A DNA stretch of 64,000 nt from Anaerolineae bacterium. GTDB taxonomy: Bacteria; Chloroflexota; Anaerolineae; 4572-78; J111. How positions within the stretch are numbered: the first letter of the stretch is position 1; each line of letters starts with the position of its first letter. The position numbers and the translations under genes are program-made. Shown here one piece after another: positions 6,385 through 21,644 of this stretch. The notes under the pieces are model-generated. The model was not told the origin of the DNA. It saw nothing but the letters and a program-made list of their open reading frames with translations, and did not search any database. The DNA is taken from positions 1 through 64,000 of the forward strand of contig JAFGDY010000208.1 of the NCBI GenBank assembly GCA_016931895.1, read 5' to 3'.

Positions 6385-7527
6385 CTAAATCCTCACTCTT
6401 ATTGGCCGCCGTGAAAAAATAGCGGCGGGGGAACCGGTTTGAACCTTATGGGCAGACCGGGGCCAGATGCCGGGGATAGGGTGGTTACATTTTGGACACG
6501 CGCCCTCATCGGTCAGATGATAGCTCAAAACGACAAATCCATAACGCTCAACCAAGAGCGTTTGACATTTGGGGCAATAAGTATTTTCCCAATTGCCCAC
6601 CTCGCCGGGCCGGTTGCCGGCGTAAACGTAGTGCAGGCCCGCCTCCACCCCAATTTCAACAGCACGAATAAGCATGGCCGAGGTGGTGTTATCCGGTTCG
6701 GTCATCTTGTAATTCTTATGGAAAGCGGTCACATGCCAGGGAATCTCCGGCGACACTCCCGCAATAAAACGGGCGGTTTCCCACAACTCCTCGGTGGAGT
6801 CGTTGAAACCCGGCACAAGCAGGGTCAGCACTTCCAGCCAAAAATCGCGCCGGTAGAGTTCTTCAATCGTCCACAGCACGTGTTTGAGCTGCCCGCCCAA
6901 CTCGCGGTAGTTTTCCTGGCGCATAGACTTGAGATCAACTTTGTAACAATCGGTGTAGGGTTTGAGGTAAGTCAACACCTCCGGGGTGCCGTGACCGTTG
7001 GAGACAAAGCCGGTTACCAGGCCAACGGCTTTGGCCTGCTTAAAAACCTCCACCGCCCATTCCGCGGTAATGAGCGGTTCATTGTAACTGCTCACTACCA
7101 GCCGCGCCTCTGTGCGTTGGGCGGATTGCACCAGGCTTTCAGCCGTAACCTGAGTTGGCGCGACTCCGGCGGCTTTATCGCGCAGGGCCTGGCTGGTAAC
7201 CCAGTTCTGGCAGTAGCCGCACTGCAAATCGCAGCCGAGCATGCCAAAGGTTAAGGCATTACTGCTGGGCATGGCGTGGAAGAAGGGTTTCTTTTCCACG
7301 GGGTCGCTTTGCACGCCGGCGGCATAACCAAAGGGCACGCGCAGTACGCCACCTTCATTGTAGCGCACCTGGCAAATACCCCGGCGGCCCGGAAAGATCA
7401 CGCAGCGATGTCCACAGGCAAAACAACGGACTTTATCGTCTGCCAGCTTTTCGTAGAGTTCGCCCTCAACCGTGGCGGTATCAAGAACCTCTTGCAGCGT
7501 GGCTTGCTGCGATGAAGAGAATGTCAT
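6385..7527 (-). CDS. amrS: AmmeMemoRadiSam-type radical SAM enzyme (AmrS-like)
   Basis: A 380-residue radical SAM protein of the group annotated as AmmeMemoRadiSam system radical SAM enzyme. The cluster motif is CDLQCGYC, with Cys99, Cys103 and Cys106 binding the 4Fe-4S centre. Upstream is a Cys-rich N-terminal segment CFACGHRCVIFPGRRGIC, and the C-terminus carries a zinc-ribbon-like pair of CPKC motifs. An upstream in-frame start (7593) exists, but the ATG at 7527 is preferred because GGGGTG lies 8 bases before it and the protein then begins MTFSSSQQ. AMMECR1 and Memo partners, which name the family, are absent here. Instead the gene is fused in an operon to the LarA-like gene. The chemical role of the family is not established. 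Confidence 0.88.
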   Translation of the reverse strand: MTFSSSQQATLQEVLDTATVEGELYEKLADDKVRCFACGHRCVIFPGRRGICQVRYNEGGVLRVPFGYAAGVQSDPVEKKPFFHAMPSSNALTFGMLGCDLQCGYCQNWVTSQALRDKAAGVAPTQVTAESLVQSAQRTEARLVVSSYNEPLITAEWAVEVFKQAKAVGLVTGFVSNGHGTPEVLTYLKPYTDCYKVDLKSMRQENYRELGGQLKHVLWTIEELYRRDFWLEVLTLLVPGFNDSTEELWETARFIAGVSPEIPWHVTAFHKNYKMTEPDNTTSAMLIRAVEIGVEAGLHYVYAGNRPGEVGNWENTYCPKCQTLLVERYGFVVLSYHLTDEGACPKCNHPIPGIWPRSAHKVQTGSPAAIFSRRPIRVRI

Positions 7528-7625
7528 TATAAAATCACCCCTTTCTGTTAGGATATTGTACTCTCGGCAGAAAGGGGTGTCAATGAATAACAAATAAGGG
7601 GGTCTGTCTCAATTTTTTGGTCTGC

Positions 7626-7704: not shown

Positions 7705-8397
7705 CTACAAGTTCAGCGAACCGCCGGGCGACAACACGAACACTTTGGTATCAGTCTCGGCTTCAACCCGCTTGGCCCAGGCCTCGGCGTCTTGCTCAAT
7801 CACGGGCCAGCTATTGTAATGGGTAGGCACAGCCATTTTGGGCTTAACCAATTTGACGGCCTTCAACGCATCATCCGGGCCCATTGTAAAATTATCGCCA
7901 ATAGGCAGCACAAACAGGTCAACGCCTTCCTGGCCGTAAAGCTGCATGTCGCCAAAAAGGCCGGTGTCGCAGGCCAGGTAAATCTTTTTGCCTTCCGCCG
8001 TAATCAGGAAACCGGCCGGGTTGCCGCCGTAGCTGCCATCCGGCAGGCCGGAGCCGTGATGGGCAATGGTCAATTTAACGTAGCCAAATTCGTGTTGATA
8101 CCCCCCGCCAATATGCTGCCCATGCACCTGGCCGGCGGGCAGGCCCTGTTTACCCTTCAGCCAACCGGCAATCTCGGCATTGGCAATCACTTTGGCCCCG
8201 GTGCGTTTGGCAATAGGGACCAAATCAGCCACATGGTCGCCATGGCCGTGGGACGCCAAAATGTAATCCGCCTTTACCGTGCCGGGAGATACATCGGTTG
8301 TTGGGTTATCGGTGAAAAAAGGATCAATCAGAATTTGTTTGCCACCAATTTCCAAATTATGAGTTCCGTGTCCAATCCAGGTGTATTTTATGGTCAT
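7705..8397 (-). CDS. UPF0173 metal-dependent hydrolase (metallo-beta-lactamase fold)
   Basis: A 230-residue protein of the small UPF0173 (YtkL-like) family. It shows the metal site SHGHGDH with His50, His52, Asp54 and His55, an early WIGHGTHNLEIGG segment and LIDPFFTDNP, which are diagnostic of this family. Further metal ligands fit HHGSG and CDTGLFGD, and the C-terminal PTHYNSWP carries the final His. Length is normal. The ATG at 8397 follows AGGAGG by seven bases. The in vivo substrate of UPF0173 proteins is not known. It sits downstream of the AddA gene with a 105-base gap and is probably a separate unit. Confidence 0.9.
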   Translation of the reverse strand: MTIKYTWIGHGTHNLEIGGKQILIDPFFTDNPTTDVSPGTVKADYILASHGHGDHVADLVPIAKRTGAKVIANAEIAGWLKGKQGLPAGQVHGQHIGGGYQHEFGYVKLTIAHHGSGLPDGSYGGNPAGFLITAEGKKIYLACDTGLFGDMQLYGQEGVDLFVLPIGDNFTMGPDDALKAVKLVKPKMAVPTHYNSWPVIEQDAEAWAKRVEAETDTKVFVLSPGGSLNL

Positions 8398-8502: not shown

Positions 8503-11500
8503 TTAGGGCAACAACAATGTTTGGACCGATTGTTCCACATTCAAAAAAACCAATAAAACCTGGGGTTCGCTGCCCAGTTGTTGGGCAACAGCCTGGCGAT
8601 AAGCCTGGACCTGCCGGTCGTAACCCTTTTCAGCAATGTATGTTTGCAGATTGACCTTTGGGGGCAGCCGGTCTGTTTTGAATTCAACAATCGTCCAGGG
8701 AGTATCGGGCGCGGTGCGGAACAACAGGTCTATGATGCCGCTGTGTAATTGCCCCTCCAGCATCAGGTTGTAGGGCACTTCGTGATGACGTTCGGCCACG
8801 GCTAATTGTTGGTAGAGTGGATGCGCTTGAAAACGGGCCAACAATCTGGCGGTCCGTTTTAAGGCTGTCTCAATGCTGACCGGATCGGTCAGCCCGGCAT
8901 CCAGGGCAAAGGGACGCAAGAAATCGGGAAAATCCTCTGCATCGGGAAAATGCCAGTAACGCAGGGCAATATGGGTAAGGCTGCCGACCACCCAGGCCGG
9001 CACATCGTATTCACTGTCCGGCACCACCCGCCAAACCCGGGGAGGAGGGTCACTCTCCCATTCCTGAAGTTTTTCATCCAACTCGGCAGAAGGGGGTAAA
9101 GTTAAGGGCGCCAAGAGATCAAGGGACAGCGGCCGGGAGACAGGAACCGGAGAACGGTCTTCAGACAAAACCAGGCCGATGTTTTTGGGAGGAGGATAAA
9201 CGGTACAACCCACCGCGCCGTTTTGCCAGGCCAGGGAGATAGTTTGGGCGGCGGCGGGCGGTTCGGCCAACTGTATTTCATTCAGGCCAACGACCCCGGC
9301 CAGGTCGGCCAGCCAGCCGCTGCCTTGAAGTTGAACGGCAGTTTGTTTGGCCGTACTCAATTTTACATTGCCGGAAACAATAATCTTTTCCTGGGCCCGC
9401 GTGACAGCCACGTAGAGCAACCGCCGTTCCTCGGCTGCCTTTTGTTCCGCCTCGCGGTAACTGGCCAGGCGAAAGATAGCCGGTTGGGTTTCGGCATTGG
9501 CCAGGTTTAGGGCCAGCCCCAATTCCTGATCCAGGTAAAAGGGTATGGCGTGAAAACCGCCGGTATAGCCGGCATCGGCCAACACCACCACCGGGAACTC
9601 CAGACCTTTGGCTTTGTGAATGGTCATCAATTGCACAGCACCACCCGCTTCGGTAGGAGCCTCGCTCTCCCGCGCGCCAACGTCGCTTAGCGCCTCAAGA
9701 TATTCCAAAAATTCGGAAATATTGACCACTTCGCTGCGGTGGGCGTCGGCCAGCAGTTTGTCAACATTTCGGCGCAACCGCTCTCCGCCGGGAACCAGCC
9801 GCAGAATGGCCCGGTAATGCGTTTCATCCAAAAAACGTTTGAGCACCTGGGCCACCGAGACCCGTCCCACCTGGGCGTGCAAGGCGCCAATCATCCGGCA
9901 GGCAAAAGCAGCTCGCTGTTGTTCATCTTTAGCCAACGCGGCCAGCGCCTGGCCATTGTGTAAAGCCGGCCAAAAAGAACGGCGGGTATTGTCTTCGGCC
10001 CAACGCAATTGATAAAGGGCCGCATCGCTAAGGCCAATGGCGGGCGAACGAAGCAACCCGGCCAGGGCCAGGTCGTCGGTGGGATCGGCGATTGCGGCCA
10101 GGGCATTGAGTAAATCGCGTACTTCCGGCCGGTTGTAAAAACCGCGCCCGGCAATGGTCACAAAAGGAATGCCCACCTGCTCCAGGGCGTCTTCATACAC
10201 GCCAAAGGCCGTACTGGCCCGGAAGAGCAGAGCCACGTCCTGCCAGTAGATTTGGCCGGCAGCATGCAGTTTATGCAAATGATCCGCCAGGCCAACAGCG
10301 GCGGCCCGCCGACCTTCATTTTTGTCCGCACCCAGGCCAAGTTGAAATTCAAGATAAGGGGATTTTATACCCTGGCGCGGCTCCTGGCGAAAGGCGACCA
10401 GCGGGGCAAAGGGCACCTCAAAGGGGCGGACGGGGTCATCTTCGGCGAGCATCAGGGGCGACAAAAGCACGTTGGTCAGGCCAACCAGGGCGCTGTGCGC
10501 CCGGAAGGTCAGGTCAAAATTAATAAGAGCGCCCCCTGCCGCCTGAATATCCGTTTGCACCTGACGAAAAACGGCCACGTCCGCACCGCGAAACCTATAG
10601 ATGGATTGTTTGGCGTCGCCAACCACGAACAGGGAAGACTGGGAGATAGGAGAGTTGGGAGATAGTACTTGTCTATTCCTTTTTTTCGCCCCCTCCCCAT
10701 TTTGAGCAGGCACTGCGGTTTCAGCCGGCTCAAAACCGGCCAGGGCGTACACAATCTCCCGCTGGCGTTGGTTGGTATCCTGGAATTCGTCCACCAGCAG
10801 CACGGCCTGAATCTCCTGTTGCCAGCGAGCGCGGACAGATTCATGGCCGACTAATAAGCGAACGGTCATCTGCTCCAGGTCGTCAAAATCAAGGGCCTGG
10901 GCATTGTTTTTGTAGCCCCGGTAAACGGCGCATGTGTACTCAAACAAACGCCGCACCAGGGGCAGCAGGGCGGCGGCCTGCATGTCAAGCGCCCAGCTCG
11001 GCGGTTTTTTGGGGTCAACCAGGCGACCGATCACCTGGTCAAAATGGTCGCGCAGGGCGCGCATAGCTTCTCGCGCCGCCTCAAGATCGGCTGCCGCCCA
11101 GTTGCCTTTTTGCCCGCCGGTGGAAACGGCACCTCGCAGGGCCACCAACGCCTCAAATACAACCGGCCAGTCCCGATTGGCCTGGGCTTGAGCGGCCCGG
11201 TCCCAACAGGCCAGCACCGCCCGACGGGCGACCTCCAGTTTGTCATCCTCATTTTGGGACTGTAAGGCAGCCAGCGTTCGTAGGGATTCTGACCAGGCGG
11301 GCCAGGCCAGGCGGATGGCCAACCAATGGTTCAATACGGCGGACCACTCTGCCAGAAGTTGATCATCCGGTTTTGCGGCCAGGGTGGATTCGGCATCCAG
11401 ACGACGCGCCAGCAATTCCGCCAACAAATCACGCAGTTGCCCTTCCTGGAAAAAACTGAACAACTGCGCCACTTCCGGCTGAGTGGTCACCCAGGCCAAC

Positions 11501-11958
11501 CCCTCTTCCACCGCGTGCGCCTGCCAGAGGGCGCTTTGACCCTCGTCCAGCACGACAAAGCCTGGGTCAAGACCGGCCTCAACGGGGTGGGTGCGCAGAA
11601 TGACGGCGCATAGGCCGTGAATAGTGCTAATGCGGGCCGAGTCCAGGGCGCTGAATACTTCTTGCCACAACTGCCGGTCAGGGGTCGCTTCTGCCTGCGC
11701 CAACCACTGCGCGGTGAGGCCGCGCACCCGGTTACGCATTTCGCGGGCAGCTTTGTCGGTGAAGGTGATGGCCACCAGAGAGCGCAGCGGAAATTTCGAC
11801 TCCAACAGAGAAAGATAGCGTCCCACCAGGGCCCGCGTTTTGCCCGACCCCGCCCCGGCAGTAACGGAGATAGCTGTGTCGCGGGCCGTGGTTGCGGCCA
11901 GTTGGTCGTTGGTGAGTTGAAAGAGGGAGAGAATGGAAGAATTATCTTTCGTCGCCAT
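8503..11958 (-). CDS. addA: AddA-type helicase/nuclease subunit
   Basis: A 1151-residue UvrD-like superfamily 1 helicase with a C-terminal nuclease, matching AddA of the AddAB double-strand break end-resection complex (the RecBCD analogue). Motifs in order: Q-motif region, Walker A TAGAGSGKT (Lys40), Walker B VDEFQDTNQRQ, GDAKQSIYRFRGA, the long 2B insert, MTIHKAKGLEFPVV (motif V) and YVAVTRAQEK (motif VI). The PD-(D/E)XK nuclease has GIIDLLF and IVEFKTDR near the C-terminus. It begins three bases after the stop of the AddB gene, so the two are co-translated. The linker around residues 415-430 is low-complexity. Subunit assignment rests on gene pairing plus motifs. Confidence 0.92.
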   Translation of the reverse strand: MATKDNSSILSLFQLTNDQLAATTARDTAISVTAGAGSGKTRALVGRYLSLLESKFPLRSLVAITFTDKAAREMRNRVRGLTAQWLAQAEATPDRQLWQEVFSALDSARISTIHGLCAVILRTHPVEAGLDPGFVVLDEGQSALWQAHAVEEGLAWVTTQPEVAQLFSFFQEGQLRDLLAELLARRLDAESTLAAKPDDQLLAEWSAVLNHWLAIRLAWPAWSESLRTLAALQSQNEDDKLEVARRAVLACWDRAAQAQANRDWPVVFEALVALRGAVSTGGQKGNWAAADLEAAREAMRALRDHFDQVIGRLVDPKKPPSWALDMQAAALLPLVRRLFEYTCAVYRGYKNNAQALDFDDLEQMTVRLLVGHESVRARWQQEIQAVLLVDEFQDTNQRQREIVYALAGFEPAETAVPAQNGEGAKKRNRQVLSPNSPISQSSLFVVGDAKQSIYRFRGADVAVFRQVQTDIQAAGGALINFDLTFRAHSALVGLTNVLLSPLMLAEDDPVRPFEVPFAPLVAFRQEPRQGIKSPYLEFQLGLGADKNEGRRAAAVGLADHLHKLHAAGQIYWQDVALLFRASTAFGVYEDALEQVGIPFVTIAGRGFYNRPEVRDLLNALAAIADPTDDLALAGLLRSPAIGLSDAALYQLRWAEDNTRRSFWPALHNGQALAALAKDEQQRAAFACRMIGALHAQVGRVSVAQVLKRFLDETHYRAILRLVPGGERLRRNVDKLLADAHRSEVVNISEFLEYLEALSDVGARESEAPTEAGGAVQLMTIHKAKGLEFPVVVLADAGYTGGFHAIPFYLDQELGLALNLANAETQPAIFRLASYREAEQKAAEERRLLYVAVTRAQEKIIVSGNVKLSTAKQTAVQLQGSGWLADLAGVVGLNEIQLAEPPAAAQTISLAWQNGAVGCTVYPPPKNIGLVLSEDRSPVPVSRPLSLDLLAPLTLPPSAELDEKLQEWESDPPPRVWRVVPDSEYDVPAWVVGSLTHIALRYWHFPDAEDFPDFLRPFALDAGLTDPVSIETALKRTARLLARFQAHPLYQQLAVAERHHEVPYNLMLEGQLHSGIIDLLFRTAPDTPWTIVEFKTDRLPPKVNLQTYIAEKGYDRQVQAYRQAVAQQLGSEPQVLLVFLNVEQSVQTLLLP

Positions 11959-11961
11959 TAT

Positions 11962-14900
11962 CTACCAGCCTTTGGCCTGATACTGCCAACAAAATTTAAC
12001 TCCCGGACAGTGGCCGGGACAACCGGCGGGCGGCGGCAAGGGCGCAAACCAACCGGCCCGCACTCCGGCGATATGCTTAAAAGCATGATTGATGGCTGTG
12101 TTGAGCGCCCCGGCCACGCCGCCCTCAAATTTTTCAAGCTTGAGGCTGCTGGCTTTGGCCGAGCCGATGTGCCAGTAAAAACCATCGGCAATGTCGCCCA
12201 GGTGCAGCGCCTGGCGAGCAGCTAGGGCATAAAAGGCAATTTGTAAACGACGCCCCTCCACCAGGTCACGGGCAACGATGGGGGTAGCGCCTGATTTGTA
12301 ATCAATGATACACAAACGGCCATCGGCGGTTTGGTCTATCCGGTCAATGAAACCGCGCACTCTAAACTCATCTCCGTCACGTTGAACCACCAAAGGCGGT
12401 TCATCTTTCAGGCCAAAGGTCTGCTCCTGGGCCAACGGCGTATTGAGGGCGGTCACTTCGGCCAAAGCGGCCAGGGTTTTGGCCATGATTTGTTCCAATT
12501 CGCGCCGCTGCACGGCCCACAAAGCTGTGGGCCGGAAACCGTATACAGCCGGAGCTTTATCAAAAATTTCTTGGGCCACCGCAGGCAACAGGTCCAGTAA
12601 ATGTTCACTATCCGCCGGAGTATCGGCGACCCGGCGGTAGACCTCTTCCAAAATCTCGTGGTACATACTGCCCAGGATGAACACGTCGAAGCCCTCGGCC
12701 GGCGCCCGGCGCAATTCCAGGCCCAAATCTAACCATAGCCAAAAATGGTGCGGGCAAAGGCCATAGGCCTCCAAACGGGTAGCGCTCCACACGTGTTCAG
12801 GGCCGTAAACAGCCGTGAGCCGGTTGGACAAAGCAGACAAATCCCCCTCAAAAGGACCTTGCGGTGCAACGGCCAGGCGGGTTTGCAGCACAGCCACCCC
12901 CTGAACGGTTCGGGCGGCGGCGGCGGCTAATTTCTGCTCACCCTGGTCAAACTCGGCCGGTTCAAGTTGGGCCACCAAACCGCCCTGCACAAACTCTTGC
13001 GGCGAGGCCGACTCGCTTAAACCCGGCGGGGCTTCCGGCCGGATGTGTTCCGGCGGCGGTTGGTCAAACAAGCCGTACACTTGCGACCAATAGGGCGACG
13101 GCTCCCACGGTTGGCCGTCGTCGGCCAGGTAGGGGCGGCAGAGGAACAGCTTTTCCCGGGCGCGGGTCACGGCCTGGTAAAAAAGGGTGATCTCATCGCC
13201 TCGCAGGCGATTTTCCAGCGCAGACAGGCCGGCCAGGCGCAGGGCGCGGCGATCTTCTTCGCGCAGCAAAATGTCTTCCCGTTCGGGCCGGGGAAATTCG
13301 CCTTCGGCCAGGCCAAGCAACGCCACGGCCTTGAACGATAATCCCCGCGCGTCCAACGCCGACAGCACCGGCAGGGCCGCCTCCGGGGGGTCGGGCGGGG
13401 GCAGGGCGTAGGTAGCGCCCTGAACCGCGCCTTGCAGTTCCTGGTAAAATTGATCATATGTGATCTCAGGCGGGCTGGGAGAGGATGAACTCTGGCGCAA
13501 CGACGCTTCGGCCAGCACCAAGCCGCGCAGCGCATCTTTGAAAGCGCGCAGAGCCGCAATATCACGGAAGGCTGTGGCTGATACGGCCCTGGCGCGGTTG
13601 ACGAGACCAAGACTTTTTGCTTCTCCTTTTGAGGGAGAGAGGGTATCAATTTCCAATTTTGGGTCATCGCCGATGAGGTTTTCCACAAAAGCGGCGTACC
13701 GGCGCAGGGTGGTTTGGGGGGGCGGCGTGAGACGGCCCACAAAGGCCTCAAAAGCCTGTTGCAAAGCCAGGGCTTGGGTGTGGAGAAGCTGACCGGCGGA
13801 AAGGGCATCTTCGTCGTCTCGCGCTTCAAGGTTTGAGTGTTTAGACACTTGCGCTTGCAAAGCTTCCCGCCATTGATCAAGGCCTCGGATCACCAATCCC
13901 CGCCGGGCGACAACGTCGAGATGGTCGGCATGGGGAGTTCCCACGCCGGGGGCCAGGTTTTCAAAATAGGGGCTGCGCCAGGCGTCAACCATCCGACGAC
14001 GAGGCCAATTACCGTCAAGACTATCACTTTGGGCAGGCAGCGCCAACAACGAGAGCAGCGCCGCCACTGCGGGATTGGCGGCCAGGTTCAAACGCTCCCG
14101 GAGACGCAGGGTCAAACCAAATTCAGCCGCTACCTCCTCAATAAAGGGAGAGTAAGGGGTCAAATCACGGGCAATCAGGGCCACATCGGCGGGGGCCAGC
14201 CGGTCTCTGACCAGGCGGGCCTTCAGCCAACGCAGGGCGGCGCGGGTTTCTTCGGCTCGATTTTGGGCTTCGACAAAGGTGACGCTTGTCTGGGCAAGTT
14301 CTGCTTTTAAGGGGGCGGCGTGAGGATTAAAAAGGTTCGCTTCCAGGTGGGTCAGCGCAGCCGGAGACGGTGAAACAGATTCTTGGGGCAGCGGTTCCGG
14401 CTCAAGTTTTAAGGCTTCGCTGACGGCTTGCAAGGCCCGGGTAAAACGGCGCAAAGCCGGGCGGGCAGCGGTTCCGGCGGAGGCGAAAGCTGTGGCCGGG
14501 TCGCCGGTTAAGGTGATGATGGTTTCGGCGGCGCGTTGGGCCAAAGATTTGAGCACGTCTAACTGGGTGGGATTAAATTCGTCAAAGCCGTCAACAATGA
14601 GCAAGCGCAGGTGGCGTCCTAAATCGGGCTGGCGTTCCAGGGCCAGGGCGGCCAGCCAGCCCCGGCCTTCCGTGTCGGCCCAGCGGTAATCGAGCAGCCA
14701 ATCCTGGTAGATGGCGTATATGTCGGCCAATTCGGTGAGGCGGGGTTGCTGATGGGGCAGCGATTGGATGGCCTGGCGGAACGCCTCCCGCCGGATGCCG
14801 GCCCGTTTGAGTTCTTCCACCAACGAGCGCAGGGTCACTACAAAACCCGGTTTATCGCGTAGGGGGGCATAATAAGACAAACGGCCTTCATCGGTAAGCC

Positions 14901-15192
14901 GGGTGACGATGCTGCGCAACAGGTGATATTGCACGGGTTCGGGCAGGCATGGCTCCAGTTTACCGGCCCAGGCCAATATTTCGGCGTAGAGGCCGTAAAA
15001 GGTTTGTAACTGCACGCCCAGGGCACCCCCAGCGGCGCTCAAGCGGTAGCGGAAGGCGTTTACCTGGGCCTGGTTGGGGAGGATAACCTCAATAGAGGTC
15101 AGGGGGTCAGCAACGCGAACCTGGCGGATACGCTCCAGGGTATAGGCGGTTTTGCCGCGTCCGGCCGGGGCCAGGTAAAGGTGGATCGTCAT
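11962..15192 (-). CDS. addB: AddB-type helicase-like/nuclease subunit
   Basis: A 1076-residue partner of AddA. The N-terminal Walker A is APAGRGKT (Lys14); the rest of the helicase-like core is divergent, as is usual for AddB. The C-terminal PD-(D/E)XK nuclease shows RVRGFIDRID and IIDYKSGATP. Four cysteines fit the AddB iron-sulphur cluster: one in YGLCPHHFW before the nuclease motifs and three in CPGHCPGVKFC at the extreme C-terminus. Proline-rich low-complexity stretches occur around residues 270-290 and 580-610. It is read before addA and after the SNF2 gene. A heptad-repeat hairpin lies in the gap upstream. Confidence 0.88.
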   Translation of the reverse strand: MTIHLYLAPAGRGKTAYTLERIRQVRVADPLTSIEVILPNQAQVNAFRYRLSAAGGALGVQLQTFYGLYAEILAWAGKLEPCLPEPVQYHLLRSIVTRLTDEGRLSYYAPLRDKPGFVVTLRSLVEELKRAGIRREAFRQAIQSLPHQQPRLTELADIYAIYQDWLLDYRWADTEGRGWLAALALERQPDLGRHLRLLIVDGFDEFNPTQLDVLKSLAQRAAETIITLTGDPATAFASAGTAARPALRRFTRALQAVSEALKLEPEPLPQESVSPSPAALTHLEANLFNPHAAPLKAELAQTSVTFVEAQNRAEETRAALRWLKARLVRDRLAPADVALIARDLTPYSPFIEEVAAEFGLTLRLRERLNLAANPAVAALLSLLALPAQSDSLDGNWPRRRMVDAWRSPYFENLAPGVGTPHADHLDVVARRGLVIRGLDQWREALQAQVSKHSNLEARDDEDALSAGQLLHTQALALQQAFEAFVGRLTPPPQTTLRRYAAFVENLIGDDPKLEIDTLSPSKGEAKSLGLVNRARAVSATAFRDIAALRAFKDALRGLVLAEASLRQSSSSPSPPEITYDQFYQELQGAVQGATYALPPPDPPEAALPVLSALDARGLSFKAVALLGLAEGEFPRPEREDILLREEDRRALRLAGLSALENRLRGDEITLFYQAVTRAREKLFLCRPYLADDGQPWEPSPYWSQVYGLFDQPPPEHIRPEAPPGLSESASPQEFVQGGLVAQLEPAEFDQGEQKLAAAAARTVQGVAVLQTRLAVAPQGPFEGDLSALSNRLTAVYGPEHVWSATRLEAYGLCPHHFWLWLDLGLELRRAPAEGFDVFILGSMYHEILEEVYRRVADTPADSEHLLDLLPAVAQEIFDKAPAVYGFRPTALWAVQRRELEQIMAKTLAALAEVTALNTPLAQEQTFGLKDEPPLVVQRDGDEFRVRGFIDRIDQTADGRLCIIDYKSGATPIVARDLVEGRRLQIAFYALAARQALHLGDIADGFYWHIGSAKASSLKLEKFEGGVAGALNTAINHAFKHIAGVRAGWFAPLPPPAGCPGHCPGVKFCWQYQAKGW

Positions 15193-15373
15193 CAGTAATC
15201 AATCTTTAAAGTAACTACTCACCGCTCAAGCCAAATGACGCCATAAACAGACGACCAATGACCAACGACGAACGATCATTCTGACGAACGAACAATGACC
15301 AATTTTTACCGTTCGTCGTTGGTCGTTTGTCATTGGTCGGAAGGGGTCCTGGCCAAAGCAATAAACTCTCAAA
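15193..15373. repeat. Heptad-repeat hairpin array, copy A (core 15251-15341)
   Basis: The gap between the SNF2 and AddB genes is filled by runs of a 7-base unit, GAC-(C/G/A)-AA-(C/T), in both orientations. A perfect 15-bp inverted repeat GACCAACGACGAACG (15260-15274) pairs with its complement at 15310-15324, and a further heptad run lies between the arms (15283-15303). Related arrays are at 19484-19538, 22416-22454 and 60524-60581. It does not encode protein. Function unknown. Confidence 0.8.
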
Positions 15374-18226
15374 TCACAATCCCGCCTCCGCCACCAACTC
15401 GTAACCTTTGTTGACCAAATCCTGTACCGTCTCAATCAGGTTTTCGGCGGTTTCAATTGAAGGCGGCGGAGCTTCTTCCTCGTCGCCGGGCGGCGCGGTC
15501 AATTCGCGGACATGGGCCAGGCGGGCAGCCAGGCTTTCGTCAATCCGTTTGCTTTCCACCAATTCAGCTTGCACCAGGCGCGGCGAAGGCAGCTCGGGGC
15601 CGGGTTCGCGGTCTTTAACCAGGGTCAAATGAGCGGTCAAAGCCCAACCCAGGGCCTGGTGGATGGGGCGCATCACTTCTTCTGGAAAACCGCCTTGCAA
15701 CACCACCCGGGCCAGTTGCAGGCGTTTGCCGGCGGTATCCAGACCTTCGCGGGCTTTTTGCAGGCGGCGGGTATCGGCTTCGCGGACGGCAGCCGGGGCG
15801 GGCATAGAGGGGGCGCGGTAGAGATCGCCTTCGGCCTGGGGGCCGGGCTGTTCGATGGCTCCGCCGGTAAGGGCCAACAAGGCGCGATAACCTTCTTGTT
15901 CCATCAGGTGCAGGCCGGGGATTGTGGTCGACTCGTCTGCGCTGAAATGTTGGGTTAACAGTTTCTCAATCTGGGGCCGCAAATCGGCAGGGGTTTTGTC
16001 AACCACCACCAAAATGTTGCCGTTGGCTTGAGCGCCGGGGAGGTGAGGCGCGCGGCGCACCAGCATAATCCGGCCAGGGAAATGGCCCACCAGTAAATCG
16101 GCAAAGGCGCGCAGGGTTGGCGTGGCTGCCGGCTCCGGCGCGGCCTTGGGCGCCAGGTCCACCTTCACTTCCACCGGCGGCGCGCCCAACATTTCATCCA
16201 GCTTTTGCATCAAACTCTGGCCGGTATCGTGGAAGGTGATGGAATCGGGCGCTTCTTCGCTGCCAAAAACTCCGGCAAAAACGTCACGTTTGGCGGCCAG
16301 GGTATCGAGCATGCGCTCCTCGATGGTGCCTTTGGCCACCAAGTTGATGACGTTGACCGTATGCGGCTGGCCGTGGCGATGGGCGCGGGCAATGCGCTGG
16401 TCGAGCACCGCCGGATTCCAGGGCAAATCAAGATTGACGACCAGGCTGGCCGCCTGCAAATTCAGGCCCACACCGCCGGCATCAGTTGAGAGGAATACTT
16501 TGCACTGGTCGTCGTTAAAAAAACGTTCAATCAGCGCGCCGCGTTTGGGCGTGGGCACGTCACCGCTGAGGGTCACGTGGCCCAGATTGAGCCGGTTCAG
16601 CACGGGATAGGTCAGGTGGAGCATGGTGGTCCACTGGCTGAAGAGGATGGCCTTGTGACCGTTATTGGCCACTTCGTCGTCGAGGATTTCTGCCAATTCT
16701 TGCAGCTTGGGCGAGGTTTTTTCGCGCTCTTTTTCCGGCAGGTGAGGATCATGCAGGGCCAGGGCGTTGCAGATGAGGCGCATTTTGACCAGCGCGCCAA
16801 GCAGGATTTGGTGCTCTTTGGGCGTTAAGGGCCGGCGGCGGGCGGTGGCAATGAGTTTGGCCACGGTGTTACGGTATTCGTCGTAGGCTTTCCACTGGGG
16901 GTCGGTCATGGGCACAAAAAAGTTGCTGTCAATCCGTTCCGGCAGGTCTTTCAACACTTCATCCCGCACCCGGCGCAGCACATAGGGCGAGATTTCATGG
17001 CGCAGTTCTTCCAAATTTTTGTAGCCCAGCACTTTGTAGGAACCGGAGGAGCGACGCTCTACCTGGAAAAAACGTTGATTGAACCGCCACAACGGGCCAA
17101 GGATGTTGGGGTCAATAAATTGGAAAATACTGTAGAGTTCGTCCAGCCGGTTTTCCAACGGCGTGCCGGTCAACACAAAAGCGTAGGGGCTGCGCAAACG
17201 TTTGACGGCGTCGGCAGTTTTGGTGCGCCAGTTTTTAATGCGCTGGGCTTCGTCAAGGATGATGAGATCGGGCCGCAGGCTGCGCAGGTCTTCCTCGTCG
17301 CGCAGCACCAATTCGTAATTGATGATGTTAAAGAAAGCCGGGTTGTGGTAGGAGTTGCGGCGGGTGGTCAGGTCGCCTTCGATGACCTCCGCGGGAAAAG
17401 AGGTGAATCGTTTGATCTCGCGCGCCCACTGGTGTTTGAGCGAGGCAGGACAAACAACCAACACTCGCTGGATGTCGCGCAATTGGTTGAGCAGGCTGCT
17501 GGCGGCGATGGCCTGCACGGTTTTACCCAAGCCCATATCGTCGGCCAGCATGGCCCGGCGGCCAAAAGCCAGGTGCATAGCGCCCTGCTCCTGGTAAGGA
17601 TAAAGGGGCGTGGAAAGCAGATTGAGGGAACGCTGGCCACGCTCGATTTGCTCTGTGAACCATTCTTTCTGGCGTTGAATGGCCTCAATGTCTTGCAGGC
17701 GCTCTAAATAACTGTATACTTCGGGCGTGATTTGAATAGAGTCGCGTTGCGCGGCGGACAGAGCCTCGATGTCTTGCAGCAGGGCGGGTAGGGTTTTGGT
17801 GACCGAGCCGGTGAGCAGACCGTCGGCGTCAAAATAACGATGCAGGGTTTCGCGCAAGGCTGATTTTTCCGGCAGGGGGAGGGTGATCCGCACGGTGGTT
17901 TCTTCGGCGTGGTGCAGAAAAATTTGGGATACAGGCGGCCGTTGGGCGGCTACTGCGTCCCACTGATCGCCCAGATTCTCTTTGAGGTGGAGCAGGACCG
18001 CTTCGATATGCTTACAAGTGCCCAACAAGTTGGTTTTATAATCGGCGCAGGAGCAACTATTGAGCAAATCCGTTAAAGAGCGAATCTGAACCCGGTAGGT
18101 TTGTTTGGATTGTGAGGTCACGTCAAAAAGGCTATAAACGGGCTGGCTGCCTTTGTTTTCAATAGCGGCAATATCTTCAGTAGCGCGTTTGCGGCGGCGC
18201 TCGATCTGTTCTTGGACGTCAACCAT
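15374..18226 (-). CDS. SNF2-family helicase with SWIM zinc finger
   Basis: A 950-residue DEAD/SNF2 ATPase. An N-terminal SWIM finger reads CSCADY...GTCKHIEAVL (about residues 60-85). The SNF2 core has DDMGLGKTVQAIA (Walker A), LIILDEAQRIKNW (Walker B, DEAQ), LTGTPLENRLDELYS, then helicase C motifs ILFSQWTTML, TDAGGVGLNLQ and DQRIARAHRHGQPHTV. A C-terminal region of about 250 residues is not recognised. The start at 18226 is chosen over 18256 because AAGGAG lies six bases before it. SNF2 proteins remodel protein-DNA complexes; here the location directly upstream of addB-addA suggests a role in DNA repair or in clearing proteins from DNA. This functional link is inference. Confidence 0.92.
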   Translation of the reverse strand: MVDVQEQIERRRKRATEDIAAIENKGSQPVYSLFDVTSQSKQTYRVQIRSLTDLLNSCSCADYKTNLLGTCKHIEAVLLHLKENLGDQWDAVAAQRPPVSQIFLHHAEETTVRITLPLPEKSALRETLHRYFDADGLLTGSVTKTLPALLQDIEALSAAQRDSIQITPEVYSYLERLQDIEAIQRQKEWFTEQIERGQRSLNLLSTPLYPYQEQGAMHLAFGRRAMLADDMGLGKTVQAIAASSLLNQLRDIQRVLVVCPASLKHQWAREIKRFTSFPAEVIEGDLTTRRNSYHNPAFFNIINYELVLRDEEDLRSLRPDLIILDEAQRIKNWRTKTADAVKRLRSPYAFVLTGTPLENRLDELYSIFQFIDPNILGPLWRFNQRFFQVERRSSGSYKVLGYKNLEELRHEISPYVLRRVRDEVLKDLPERIDSNFFVPMTDPQWKAYDEYRNTVAKLIATARRRPLTPKEHQILLGALVKMRLICNALALHDPHLPEKEREKTSPKLQELAEILDDEVANNGHKAILFSQWTTMLHLTYPVLNRLNLGHVTLSGDVPTPKRGALIERFFNDDQCKVFLSTDAGGVGLNLQAASLVVNLDLPWNPAVLDQRIARAHRHGQPHTVNVINLVAKGTIEERMLDTLAAKRDVFAGVFGSEEAPDSITFHDTGQSLMQKLDEMLGAPPVEVKVDLAPKAAPEPAATPTLRAFADLLVGHFPGRIMLVRRAPHLPGAQANGNILVVVDKTPADLRPQIEKLLTQHFSADESTTIPGLHLMEQEGYRALLALTGGAIEQPGPQAEGDLYRAPSMPAPAAVREADTRRLQKAREGLDTAGKRLQLARVVLQGGFPEEVMRPIHQALGWALTAHLTLVKDREPGPELPSPRLVQAELVESKRIDESLAARLAHVRELTAPPGDEEEAPPPSIETAENLIETVQDLVNKGYELVAEAGL

Positions 18227-18439
18227 GGTGTGCTCCTTTTTCATAAAAACCGGCAAAGATAACGACCCATTGTGCGTAATTCTGCCGGGTGTTTTTTAAG
18301 ACGTGTTGCGTAGACGGAAGACAGTGTACGCAGCATTTATTCAAACTGAACGAGGCAGGCTAATTACAACCAACCGGCTGAGATATTTTAACACGCTTGT
18401 TTATTTGGAGCTAAATTGGGGAGAACGTATCAACAATAT

Positions 18440-18515: not shown

Positions 18516-19265
18516 ATGGGGCTTATAGAAGATTTGATTAACACCCTGCCGGATGGCAAGATTCAGGAAATATGCGTTGGCGCCTTCTGGACGGCGGTAG
18601 TGGTTGATAGCGCCGGGAAGTTGGGCTGTGGGTTGGCGTCAACAATGCGTGATCAAAACCATCATCACCGAGAGGGGCCGGACGTGTCCCATGCCGGCCG
18701 GTTAACGGAATATAGCGCTCGAGAGTTGGCCGAATGGGCTTGCTCTCAAAAATCCATGGAAGCGGCCATTGGCCTGGCCACTCTCAACGCCCTGTTGCCC
18801 CGGCAACCGGAGCTTTGGGTAGACCGCAATGCCGCAGAAGTGATTGCCCAACACGGTGCAGGGAAACGAGTGGCCCTGGTGGGGCATTTCCCCTTTATCC
18901 CCCAATTACAGAAGCAGGTAGACACCTTATGGGTTTTAGAACAGGTTCCCCAGGGCGCGGACCTGCCGGCCAGTGCCGCCTCAGAAGTGATCCCCCAGGC
19001 CGACGTGGTGGCTATCACGGGCACAACTTTGATCAATCACACCTTTGCCAAATTAATCACCCTCTGTCGCCCGGAAGCTCTGGTGTTAGTGCTAGGCCCC
19101 ACCACCCCTCTTTCGCCTATTTTGTTTGATTATAAGGTTGACCTTTTATCCGGCTCGGTGGTTGAAAATATACCGGCCGTACTCAGGGCGGTCAGTCAAG
19201 GAGCGAATTTCCGGCAAGTGCACCGGCAGGGCGTGCGCCTGGTGACAATGCAAGCCACCCAATAG
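18516..19265 (+). CDS. DUF4213/DUF364 protein, putative heavy-metal chelation family
   Basis: A 249-residue protein of the DUF364 family with an N-terminal DUF4213 domain. Residues about 1-90 include VGAFWTAVVVDSAG and the segment GLASTMR; residues about 100-235 form a Rossmann-like domain with VALVGHFPFIP (usual family form GxFPxi), ITGTTLINHT and VLGPTTPLSP. Family structures suggest binding of a metal chelate or anion, but no reaction is established. Family members often sit near molybdenum or iron-uptake genes; none are here. The promoter at 18440-18468 drives it, and the DnaA-box cluster begins 36 bases after its stop codon. Confidence 0.8.
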   Translation: MGLIEDLINTLPDGKIQEICVGAFWTAVVVDSAGKLGCGLASTMRDQNHHHREGPDVSHAGRLTEYSARELAEWACSQKSMEAAIGLATLNALLPRQPELWVDRNAAEVIAQHGAGKRVALVGHFPFIPQLQKQVDTLWVLEQVPQGADLPASAASEVIPQADVVAITGTTLINHTFAKLITLCRPEALVLVLGPTTPLSPILFDYKVDLLSGSVVENIPAVLRAVSQGANFRQVHRQGVRLVTMQATQ

Positions 19266-19300: not shown

Positions 19301-19372
19301 TGTGGATAAAGCCAACCATTCTGTGGATAAATTAAATATTATTGTGGACAACCGGGCTTGCCCTGTGGATAA
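19301..19372 (+). promoter_or_regulatory. Cluster of four direct DnaA boxes at 21-bp spacing
   Basis: TGTGGATAA occurs at 19301-19309, 19322-19330 and 19364-19372, and the variant TGTGGACAA at 19343-19351. These are the reverse complements of TTATCCACA and TTGTCCACA, the consensus DnaA-binding box and a common variant. All four have the same orientation and their starts are exactly 21 bases apart, two helical turns, so DnaA would stack on one face. The second spacer is AT-only (ATTAAATATTAT). Such an arrangement fits a replication origin, a DnaA-titration site or a DnaA-controlled promoter. dnaA and dnaN are not in the window. Confidence 0.8.
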
Positions 19373-19426
19373 ATCATCCCCCGCCAATGGCGTCATTACC
19401 TTCAATTTCTATTCATACCCGGAGCG

Positions 19427-19436
19427 TGATACAATA
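19427..19436 (+). promoter_or_regulatory. Extended -10 promoter for def
   Basis: TG-A-TACAAT is an extended -10 element (TACAAT at 19430-19435). No good -35 box is seen, which is normal for extended -10 promoters. The predicted leader would be about 155 bases and contains the heptad-repeat hairpin ahead of the def start. Confidence 0.45.
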
Positions 19437-19483: not shown

Positions 19484-19538
19484 AGCGACGAATGACGAAC
19501 AAGTAAAGTTGGTCATTGGTCGTTCGTCGTTGGTCGTA
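19484..19538. repeat. Heptad-repeat hairpin array, copy B
   Basis: Left arm GCGACGAATGACGAAC, right arm made of TTGGTCA, TTGGTCG, TTCGTCG and TTGGTCG units, which are the reverse complement of the GACNAAY heptad. The arms can pair. It lies 60 bases upstream of def and 110 bases downstream of the DnaA boxes. Confidence 0.75.
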
Positions 19539-19597: not shown

Positions 19598-20161
19598 ATG
19601 GCTGTTAGAGACATTGTATTATACGCTAAAAATGAAACCGCCCTGCGCAAAAAAAGCGAGCCAGTGCGGGTGGTCAACCGGCGGATAAAAAAATTGATCA
19701 GGGATTTAAAGGACACCCTGGCGGTGCATCCCGAAGGCATTGGTTTGGCTGCCCCGCAGATCAACGTTCACCAACGCATCGTGGTGGTGCGCCTGGGCAG
19801 TCGTAATGAAAACGGCCAGGAACCGGACCCGCCGATAGCCTTGGTTAATCCCGAAATCATCGAGGCCAGCGACCCCCAAAAAGACTTTGACGGTTGTCTC
19901 AGTTTTCCCGGCCTGTTTGCCGAAACCACCCGCCCCCATTATTTACGGGTTAAGGGTTTGAATGAATATGGCAAACCCTTTGACCGCATTTTTGAGGATT
20001 TTGATGCCGTGTTGGTGCATCACGAAATAGACCACCTGGAGGGCATCCTCTTTATTGACCGGCTGGACAGCATAGATGATTTGTACCGGGTGGAGGAGGA
20101 CGAAGAAGGCCAGTTAGTGCGGGTCCCGGTGGCGGCCAGAGAGAGGAACTATGGACTTTGA
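19598..20161 (+). CDS. def: Peptide deformylase
   Basis: A 187-residue iron/zinc enzyme that removes the formyl group from the initiator methionine of new proteins. The three family motifs are present: GIGLAAPQ (residues 47-54), DGCLSFPG with metal ligand Cys100 (usual form EGCLSVPG, so Asp and Phe replace Glu and Val), and HEIDH (142-146) with two His ligands and the catalytic Glu143. Length is normal. Its last 11 bases overlap the start of the methyltransferase gene. A fmt gene, often its neighbour, is not in the window. Confidence 0.96.
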   Translation: MAVRDIVLYAKNETALRKKSEPVRVVNRRIKKLIRDLKDTLAVHPEGIGLAAPQINVHQRIVVVRLGSRNENGQEPDPPIALVNPEIIEASDPQKDFDGCLSFPGLFAETTRPHYLRVKGLNEYGKPFDRIFEDFDAVLVHHEIDHLEGILFIDRLDSIDDLYRVEEDEEGQLVRVPVAARERNYGL

Positions 20162-20726: not shown

Positions 20727-21644
20727 TTACGGCCTCACCGCCACATTGCCGGGCCGGCGCCAGCCTATACTCTTGAAGATTTCATTGACCACCATCACCC
20801 CCACTAAAATCAATACGCAGCCAGCATAAGCGCTCCACCCCAATTGTTCGTTCAGGATAACGACCCCCAAGACCACCCCAATGGAGGGCGCCAGATAGGT
20901 GACCATAGACACGTAGGTGGCGCTGGTTCTTTCTAAAAGGCGGTAATAAATAATAAAGGCTATGGCCGTGCCTAAAACGGACAGGCCCAGCAACGATCCC
21001 ACCGCCGGCCACGAGGGCAGGGGGTGACGGAAAGGTTTTTCAATAAGCAGCGACAGCGGCAGCAGGTAAATAGTGGCCACGGCCAATTGGGCCGTGGGTG
21101 CAACCAGGGGCGGCAAACCCCGCAAATGGCGGCGCACATAAACCAGGCCAATGCCATAACTGGCTGCCGCCATAGTGATGGCTAACAAGCCCCAGGTGGT
21201 GGCATGCACGCCGCCCCACAGCGACGGCGAAATCAGCAGCGACAGACCGGCAAAACCCACCAGAGTGCCCATCACTTTTACCGGCGTCATACGGTCATCG
21301 GCAGTAAAAAAGTGGGCCAGGATGATGGTAAAGAGAGGCGTAGTGCCGTTAAGGATAGCAGCCAGGGCGCTATCAATGTATTGTTCGCCCCAACTAAAAA
21401 GAACAAAGGGCAGGGCATTGGAGAAAAAACCAACCACGGCAAAATGTTTCCAAATCCGGCCCGGACCGGGTAAATTTTTCCCCTGCCCACGCAAAACGGC
21501 ATAGAGCAGCAACGTGGCTATCCCCACCCGGCTCATGGCCAGAGTAATGGGCGGAATATCGCCCACGGCTACTTTAATAAACAAAAAAGAAGGCCCCCAC
21601 AAACAGGCCAAAAATATCAACCACAGAAAATTTCTAAACCCCAT
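20727..21644 (-). CDS. DMT/EamA family exporter
   Basis: A 305-residue inner-membrane transporter with ten predicted helices in two EamA repeats (first about 5-140, second about 155-290). Recognisable segments are LACLWGPSFLFIKVA at the N-terminus and LERTSATYVSMVTYLAPSIG in the second repeat, both typical of the drug/metabolite transporter superfamily. The substrate is probably an amino acid or similar metabolite, judged only from the Lrp/AsnC regulator gene read in the same direction 155 bases upstream. The region 21645-21799 between the two holds no gene. Confidence 0.9.
   Translation of the reverse strand: MGFRNFLWLIFLACLWGPSFLFIKVAVGDIPPITLAMSRVGIATLLLYAVLRGQGKNLPGPGRIWKHFAVVGFFSNALPFVLFSWGEQYIDSALAAILNGTTPLFTIILAHFFTADDRMTPVKVMGTLVGFAGLSLLISPSLWGGVHATTWGLLAITMAAASYGIGLVYVRRHLRGLPPLVAPTAQLAVATIYLLPLSLLIEKPFRHPLPSWPAVGSLLGLSVLGTAIAFIIYYRLLERTSATYVSMVTYLAPSIGVVLGVVILNEQLGWSAYAGCVLILVGVMVVNEIFKSIGWRRPGNVAVRP

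Follow-up and report, generated by a model that had tools for sequence, protein, structure and literature searches.

Four DnaA boxes stand in parallel, exactly 21 bp apart, in an intergenic region of the window (the whole 64,000-nucleotide stretch of DNA analysed here), and we consider that they probably form an array outside the origin that binds DnaA and either holds or processes it. This reading is supported by the exact boxes and steps, by their uniqueness outside oriC, by the stronger conservation of boxes than of spacers, and by recurrence in the family; because relatives keep similar arrays at other places, a site that restrains DnaA seems most likely, rather than an origin. We infer that DnaA occupies the array, four strong boxes on one helix face binding the protein, and that DnaA bound there would be held away from oriC or presented for nucleotide turnover, with the result that initiation at the dnaA-linked oriC would be limited or timed. 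An earlier note on this DNA had listed a DnaA-titrating locus like datA among its options, and as far as sequence can speak that option holds up.

Architecture of the array

Read on the forward strand, the array (19301-19372) consists of TGTGGATAA at 19301, 19322 and 19364 and TGTGGACAA at 19343, all on a single strand. As DnaA boxes they lie on the minus strand, where boxes 1 (19301-19309), 2 (19322-19330) and 4 (19364-19372) are the exact consensus TTATCCACA and box 3 (19343-19351) is the common variant TTGTCCACA. All three steps are exactly 21 bp, just as the earlier note had described for four boxes of the same orientation, and the gaps between boxes are 12 bp. To the left of the array a DUF4213/DUF364 gene (18516-19265, plus strand; Pfam PF04016, PF13938) ends, and to its right lies def, encoding peptide deformylase (19598-20161, plus strand; Pfam PF01327).

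Within the window, TTATCCACA with at most one mismatch occurs 23 times against 11.3 expected, a count that 0 of 100 shuffles reached. Strict boxes in 122 kb of the array genome give a background rate at which chance would provide, genome-wide, ∼0.05 same-strand strict pairs whose starts are separated by 10-39 bp, and ∼1e-11 four-box arrays of constant step. In the whole 6.06-Mb genome, strict same-strand pairs with gaps of at most 30 bp are confined to the array and to C283:14510-14906, the dnaA-linked locus; a reversed control pattern gave 0 strict pairs in the whole-genome search, and a 21-bp step with one mismatch permitted identified no additional site in the genome. The many similar clusters against which the earlier note had cautioned are absent, the array being the sole same-strand cluster besides the dnaA-linked one. 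A recent tandem duplication is excluded by the three spacers, which agree at only 4, 1 and 1 of 12 positions. Four boxes are few when compared to the ∼150 strict single ones that the whole genome is expected to contain; by number alone they would titrate little DnaA, and holding of DnaA by the array would need cooperative or preferential binding.

Conservation, recurrence and the neighbouring genes

In the sister genome G001, the contig that carries def (C158) stops 211 bp upstream of this gene, within CAGCATATCGTA, and a second contig, C122, starts with the same repeat-like end in matching orientation. Read towards def, the C122 boxes are TGTGGATAA, TGTGGATAA, TGGGGACAA and TGTGGATAT, at exact 21-bp steps and oriented relative to def as in the window; after the array come orthologues of window genes 7705-8397 and 6385-7593, ∼80-85% identical. 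The G001 array seems to be at the same place as the window array, given a C158-C122 join that is deduced from the shared contig ends. Boxes 1 and 2 are identical in the two genomes, and the boxes of ranks 3 and 4 are TTGTCCCCA and ATATCCACA in G001, box 3 ending in GACAA in both. Between G001 and the window, 34 of 36 box columns are identical versus 12 of 36 spacer columns (Fisher p 6e-8); boxes 1-2 served to locate the G001 locus and boxes 3-4 did not, and the latter alone are identical at 16/18 positions (p 1e-4). The array appears, from this comparison, to be under selection. Strong boxes beyond chance outside oriC and conservation in relatives (for G001, across the inferred join), both marks of an off-origin cluster, are found here.

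The DUF364 gene is missing beside the G001 array and is not needed for it. Also missing at this place on C122 are the AddA/AddB-like nuclease-helicase genes and the SNF2 helicase gene of window 8503-18256; a block of genes adjoining the array has been gained or lost between the window and C122.

Off-origin, intergenic arrays of 2-5 boxes with 21-22 bp steps were found in five family genomes besides G001. Those of G003 (5 boxes) and G009 (4-5 boxes) lie between aminotransferase and PAP2 genes, and both contain the variant TGTGAATAA followed by a GGACAA box; in G005, where glpX and LysE genes converge on the array, there are 4 boxes at steps of 22-21-22, and one spacer holds an extra near-box; G007 has 3 boxes between YgjP-like peptidase and nucleotidyltransferase genes; and in G006, 2 strict boxes with degenerate flanks adjoin a NUDIX gene at a distance of 519 kb from oriC. 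Steps of 22 bp occur in G003, G005, G006 and G007. At the search sensitivity used, no array was found in G004, G008 or G010, in a survey of draft genomes of which one (G002) is only 55% complete. The earlier note had proposed comparing the 21-bp steps across relatives, and these are retained in G001 and recur as 21-22 bp steps in the family.

Two further pairs were rejected: one on G011 C53, which is inside a gene with a similar pair nearby and is not an array, and one on G005 C815, which is 2.2 kb from origin box pairs and was left out of the off-origin set. The gene neighbouring the G006 array has an orthologue in G010, where an array is missing and the upstream neighbour differs, and a DNA search of relatives with the intergenic region of the window array returned the dispersed repeat described below and origin boxes, nothing more. 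Taken together, the family arrays indicate that position turns over between genera and that orientation, phasing and intergenic placement persist. One could envision a general rule for the family, which we hold tentatively and at rather less than even probability: outside oriC, each genome would have a single array of strong, parallel boxes in helical phase, its position turning over between genera and its phasing selected, a datA counterpart lacking both an IHF site and origin half-sites. How many arrays a genome is credited with depends on the pattern searched for.

Alternatively, the array could be a DnaA-responsive site for def and the methyltransferase gene behind it, DnaA near the promoter shifting expression with the replication cycle. 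This is the main rival to the holding model, and we judge it unlikely while giving it more weight than any other. That DnaA acts as a transcription factor is well established (PMC8203912, PMC4447404), and a candidate def promoter block (19404-19435, plus strand) is kept in G001, where, by eye, AATTTCTATTC and GCGTG-TAnAAT are retained; its extended -10-like TGaTACAAT (19427-19435), conserved with G001, begins 55 bp beyond the last array box. A generic promoter scan called nothing at this block. The PAP2 start is within about 12 bp of the array end in both G003 and G009. However, def orthologues in other genera, where upstream sequence exists, are without an array, and in G001 the end of a repeat-like element lies between array and def (across the putative join). 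Because the arrays of other genera adjoin unrelated genes, with that of G005 placed between convergent genes, a location in which one would not look for a promoter, the suggestion of the earlier note that DnaA regulates def through this site is weakened, and keeps only a minor share of the probability. Also between the array and def is a dispersed palindrome-like repeat (19486-19537), with 18 more matches in the genome and others in G001, G004, G007 and G019.

The search was extended to species genomes, among which three boxes at steps of 21/21 bp were found in 96 stretches. In 25 of the 80 examined, dnaA is within the fetched segment; among the remainder are Glycomyces, Pseudonocardiales and several Chloroflexi. 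No shared neighbour gene stood out. Because the fetched segments are short and off-centre, absence of dnaA from them is no proof of an off-origin place. Six Glycomyces loci (L103, L106, L111, L115, L116, L127) share a five-box layout in which a 60-bp step separates three boxes at 21 bp from two more at 21 bp, with no dnaA within the fetched segments.

A few of the examined stretches are protein-coding heptad repeats, 21 bp being seven codons. In Microseira (L169) and Nostoc (L120), DnaA-box-like tandem words at 21-bp steps lie within protein repeats such as VDKLSTD, mimics that are a trap for box-based origin searches. A coding repeat of this kind that happens to spell DnaA boxes, or chance, could be proposed for the window array as well, across which one frame is open for ∼68 codons. 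We consider either extremely improbable: the chance expectation given above is against it, the window array has no similarity to that of G001 past the boxes, and the 22-bp steps in four relatives break any reading frame, which largely excludes a coding repeat.

The dnaA-linked origin and other box clusters

The same genome has dnaA on a different contig (C283 13090-14454, plus strand; Bac_DnaA E 7e-71). Behind it are seven exact boxes, at 14510, 14531, 14576, 14695, 14716, 14864 and 14898, with near-consensus boxes interspersed, and then the weakest 50-100 bp of the entire contig by nearest-neighbour energy (∼15024-15123); selA comes after the origin region. Two box pairs spaced at 21/22 bp are also found behind dnaA in G001, G003, G005, G006, G009 and G010, and G008 and G011 have at least 14 exact boxes in this region, so that dnaA with its box cluster is a layout common to the family. 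With dnaA, boxes and least stable DNA together on C283 and this layout family-wide, the array is very probably not the main origin, and the proposal in the earlier note of an origin placed away from dnaA fails. The array shares with an oriC its multiple DnaA boxes (four), and has neither an adjacent easily unwound element nor a position behind dnaA as in relatives: an energy scan over 80-100 bp found no strong unwinding element, the array being only among the lowest 1.6-2% of the window, whereas the dnaA-linked locus has the minimum of its contig. GC skew is weak and shows no switch even at the dnaA-linked locus (both contigs, and 20 samples along G006 C1), and is therefore uninformative on origin position.

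A second DnaA-like match, on C82, was rejected as a DnaC/IstB-like helicase-loader candidate instead. This locus (L231, G000:C82:5182-8719) contains dnaB and a DnaB_2/DnaD-like gene, and also encodes a 476-aa protein in which two DnaC/IstB-type AAA+ domains follow each other; the double-domain candidate recurs across the order.

Box pairs at origins and elsewhere appear to be built differently. ATAAC, a half-box about one turn ahead of the second box, directly precedes that box in 11 of 16 origin pairs versus 0 of 19 off-origin pairs, a difference whose significance is inflated by kinship among the genomes, the pairs having been hand-listed; the two classes differ in half-box score (p 8e-6) and in mid-site mismatches (p 0.004). 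Origin pairs could accordingly be envisioned as a weak site between two strong ones, an arrangement that would suit a continuous DnaA chain, and off-origin arrays as composed mostly of strong sites only.

One could still suppose that the array serves as an additional or alternative origin of replication, detached from dnaA. In three genomes of other families (G012, G014, G021) the only clusters found are on contigs without dnaA, which suggests that detached origins may occur in the order, and an origin in such relatives can consist of just three boxes. The array genome, however, has a full dnaA-linked cluster together with the least stable DNA of its contig, and the array is without a comparable unwinding element over 80-100 bp and without the half-box of origin pairs; we regard a second origin as very unlikely. 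The clusters in those three genomes (L218, G012:C22; L219, G014:C125; L220, G021:C44) are same-strand and lie beside tkt, metG or, in G021, efflux and glycosyltransferase genes, between which 26 boxes are found; dnaA in these genomes is without a box cluster of its own. These clusters are possible origins detached from dnaA. In draft genomes, box clusters alone may indicate the wrong origin.

Relation to known DnaA-control sites

Off-origin control of DnaA is so far known from few model bacteria. If the holding model is true, a recognisable array in Chloroflexota would make it possible to test directly whether strong boxes in phase suffice to restrain DnaA, in a family of mostly uncultured organisms in which the gene neighbourhood changes and the helical phasing is kept. 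Experiments in E. coli support titration of DnaA by the chromosome (PMC12371093), and B. subtilis DnaA binds most strongly in vitro at its box arrays (PMC4447404). In the literature searched on Chloroflexi oriC and DnaA boxes and on the Anaerolineae DnaA box, we found no such locus reported.

Like the array, E. coli datA is an intergenic control site with few DnaA boxes away from oriC, and DARS1 and DARS2 are small box clusters of fixed spacing; both datA and DARS are short, intergenic and present once each per genome (PMC5742627). The array could by analogy be a nucleotide-switch site rather than a passive sink, either datA-like (ATP hydrolysis) or DARS-like (ADP release). However, datA requires an IHF site between its boxes (PMC5742627), and the window contains the IHF consensus only twice, at 21371 and 37802, neither of them near the array; the DARS core has three boxes with box I inverted to boxes II and III (PMC5742627), whereas the array boxes are all parallel. 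By architecture the array is therefore neither datA nor DARS, and we think a nucleotide switch improbable, though better placed than a second origin.

The holding model can also be set beside the E. coli double DnaA box, which likewise has a defined spacing between neighbours (PMC11317965). E. coli DnaA prefers pairs with a gap of 2-3 bp (PMC11317965), in contrast to the 12-bp gap and two turns per step of the array, and no recognisable box was found inside the 12-bp gaps. A further parallel is provided by the DnaA box clusters (DBCs) of B. subtilis and S. coelicolor, likewise compact off-origin groups proposed to limit initiation (Okumura 2012; Smulczyk-Krawczyszyn 2006, cited in PMC4585315), which are described as close to oriC and are reported to repress untimely initiation (PMC4585315). 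When compared to these clusters, the window array is distinguished by its four parallel boxes, its constant 21-bp steps, and a position that appears to turn over between genera.
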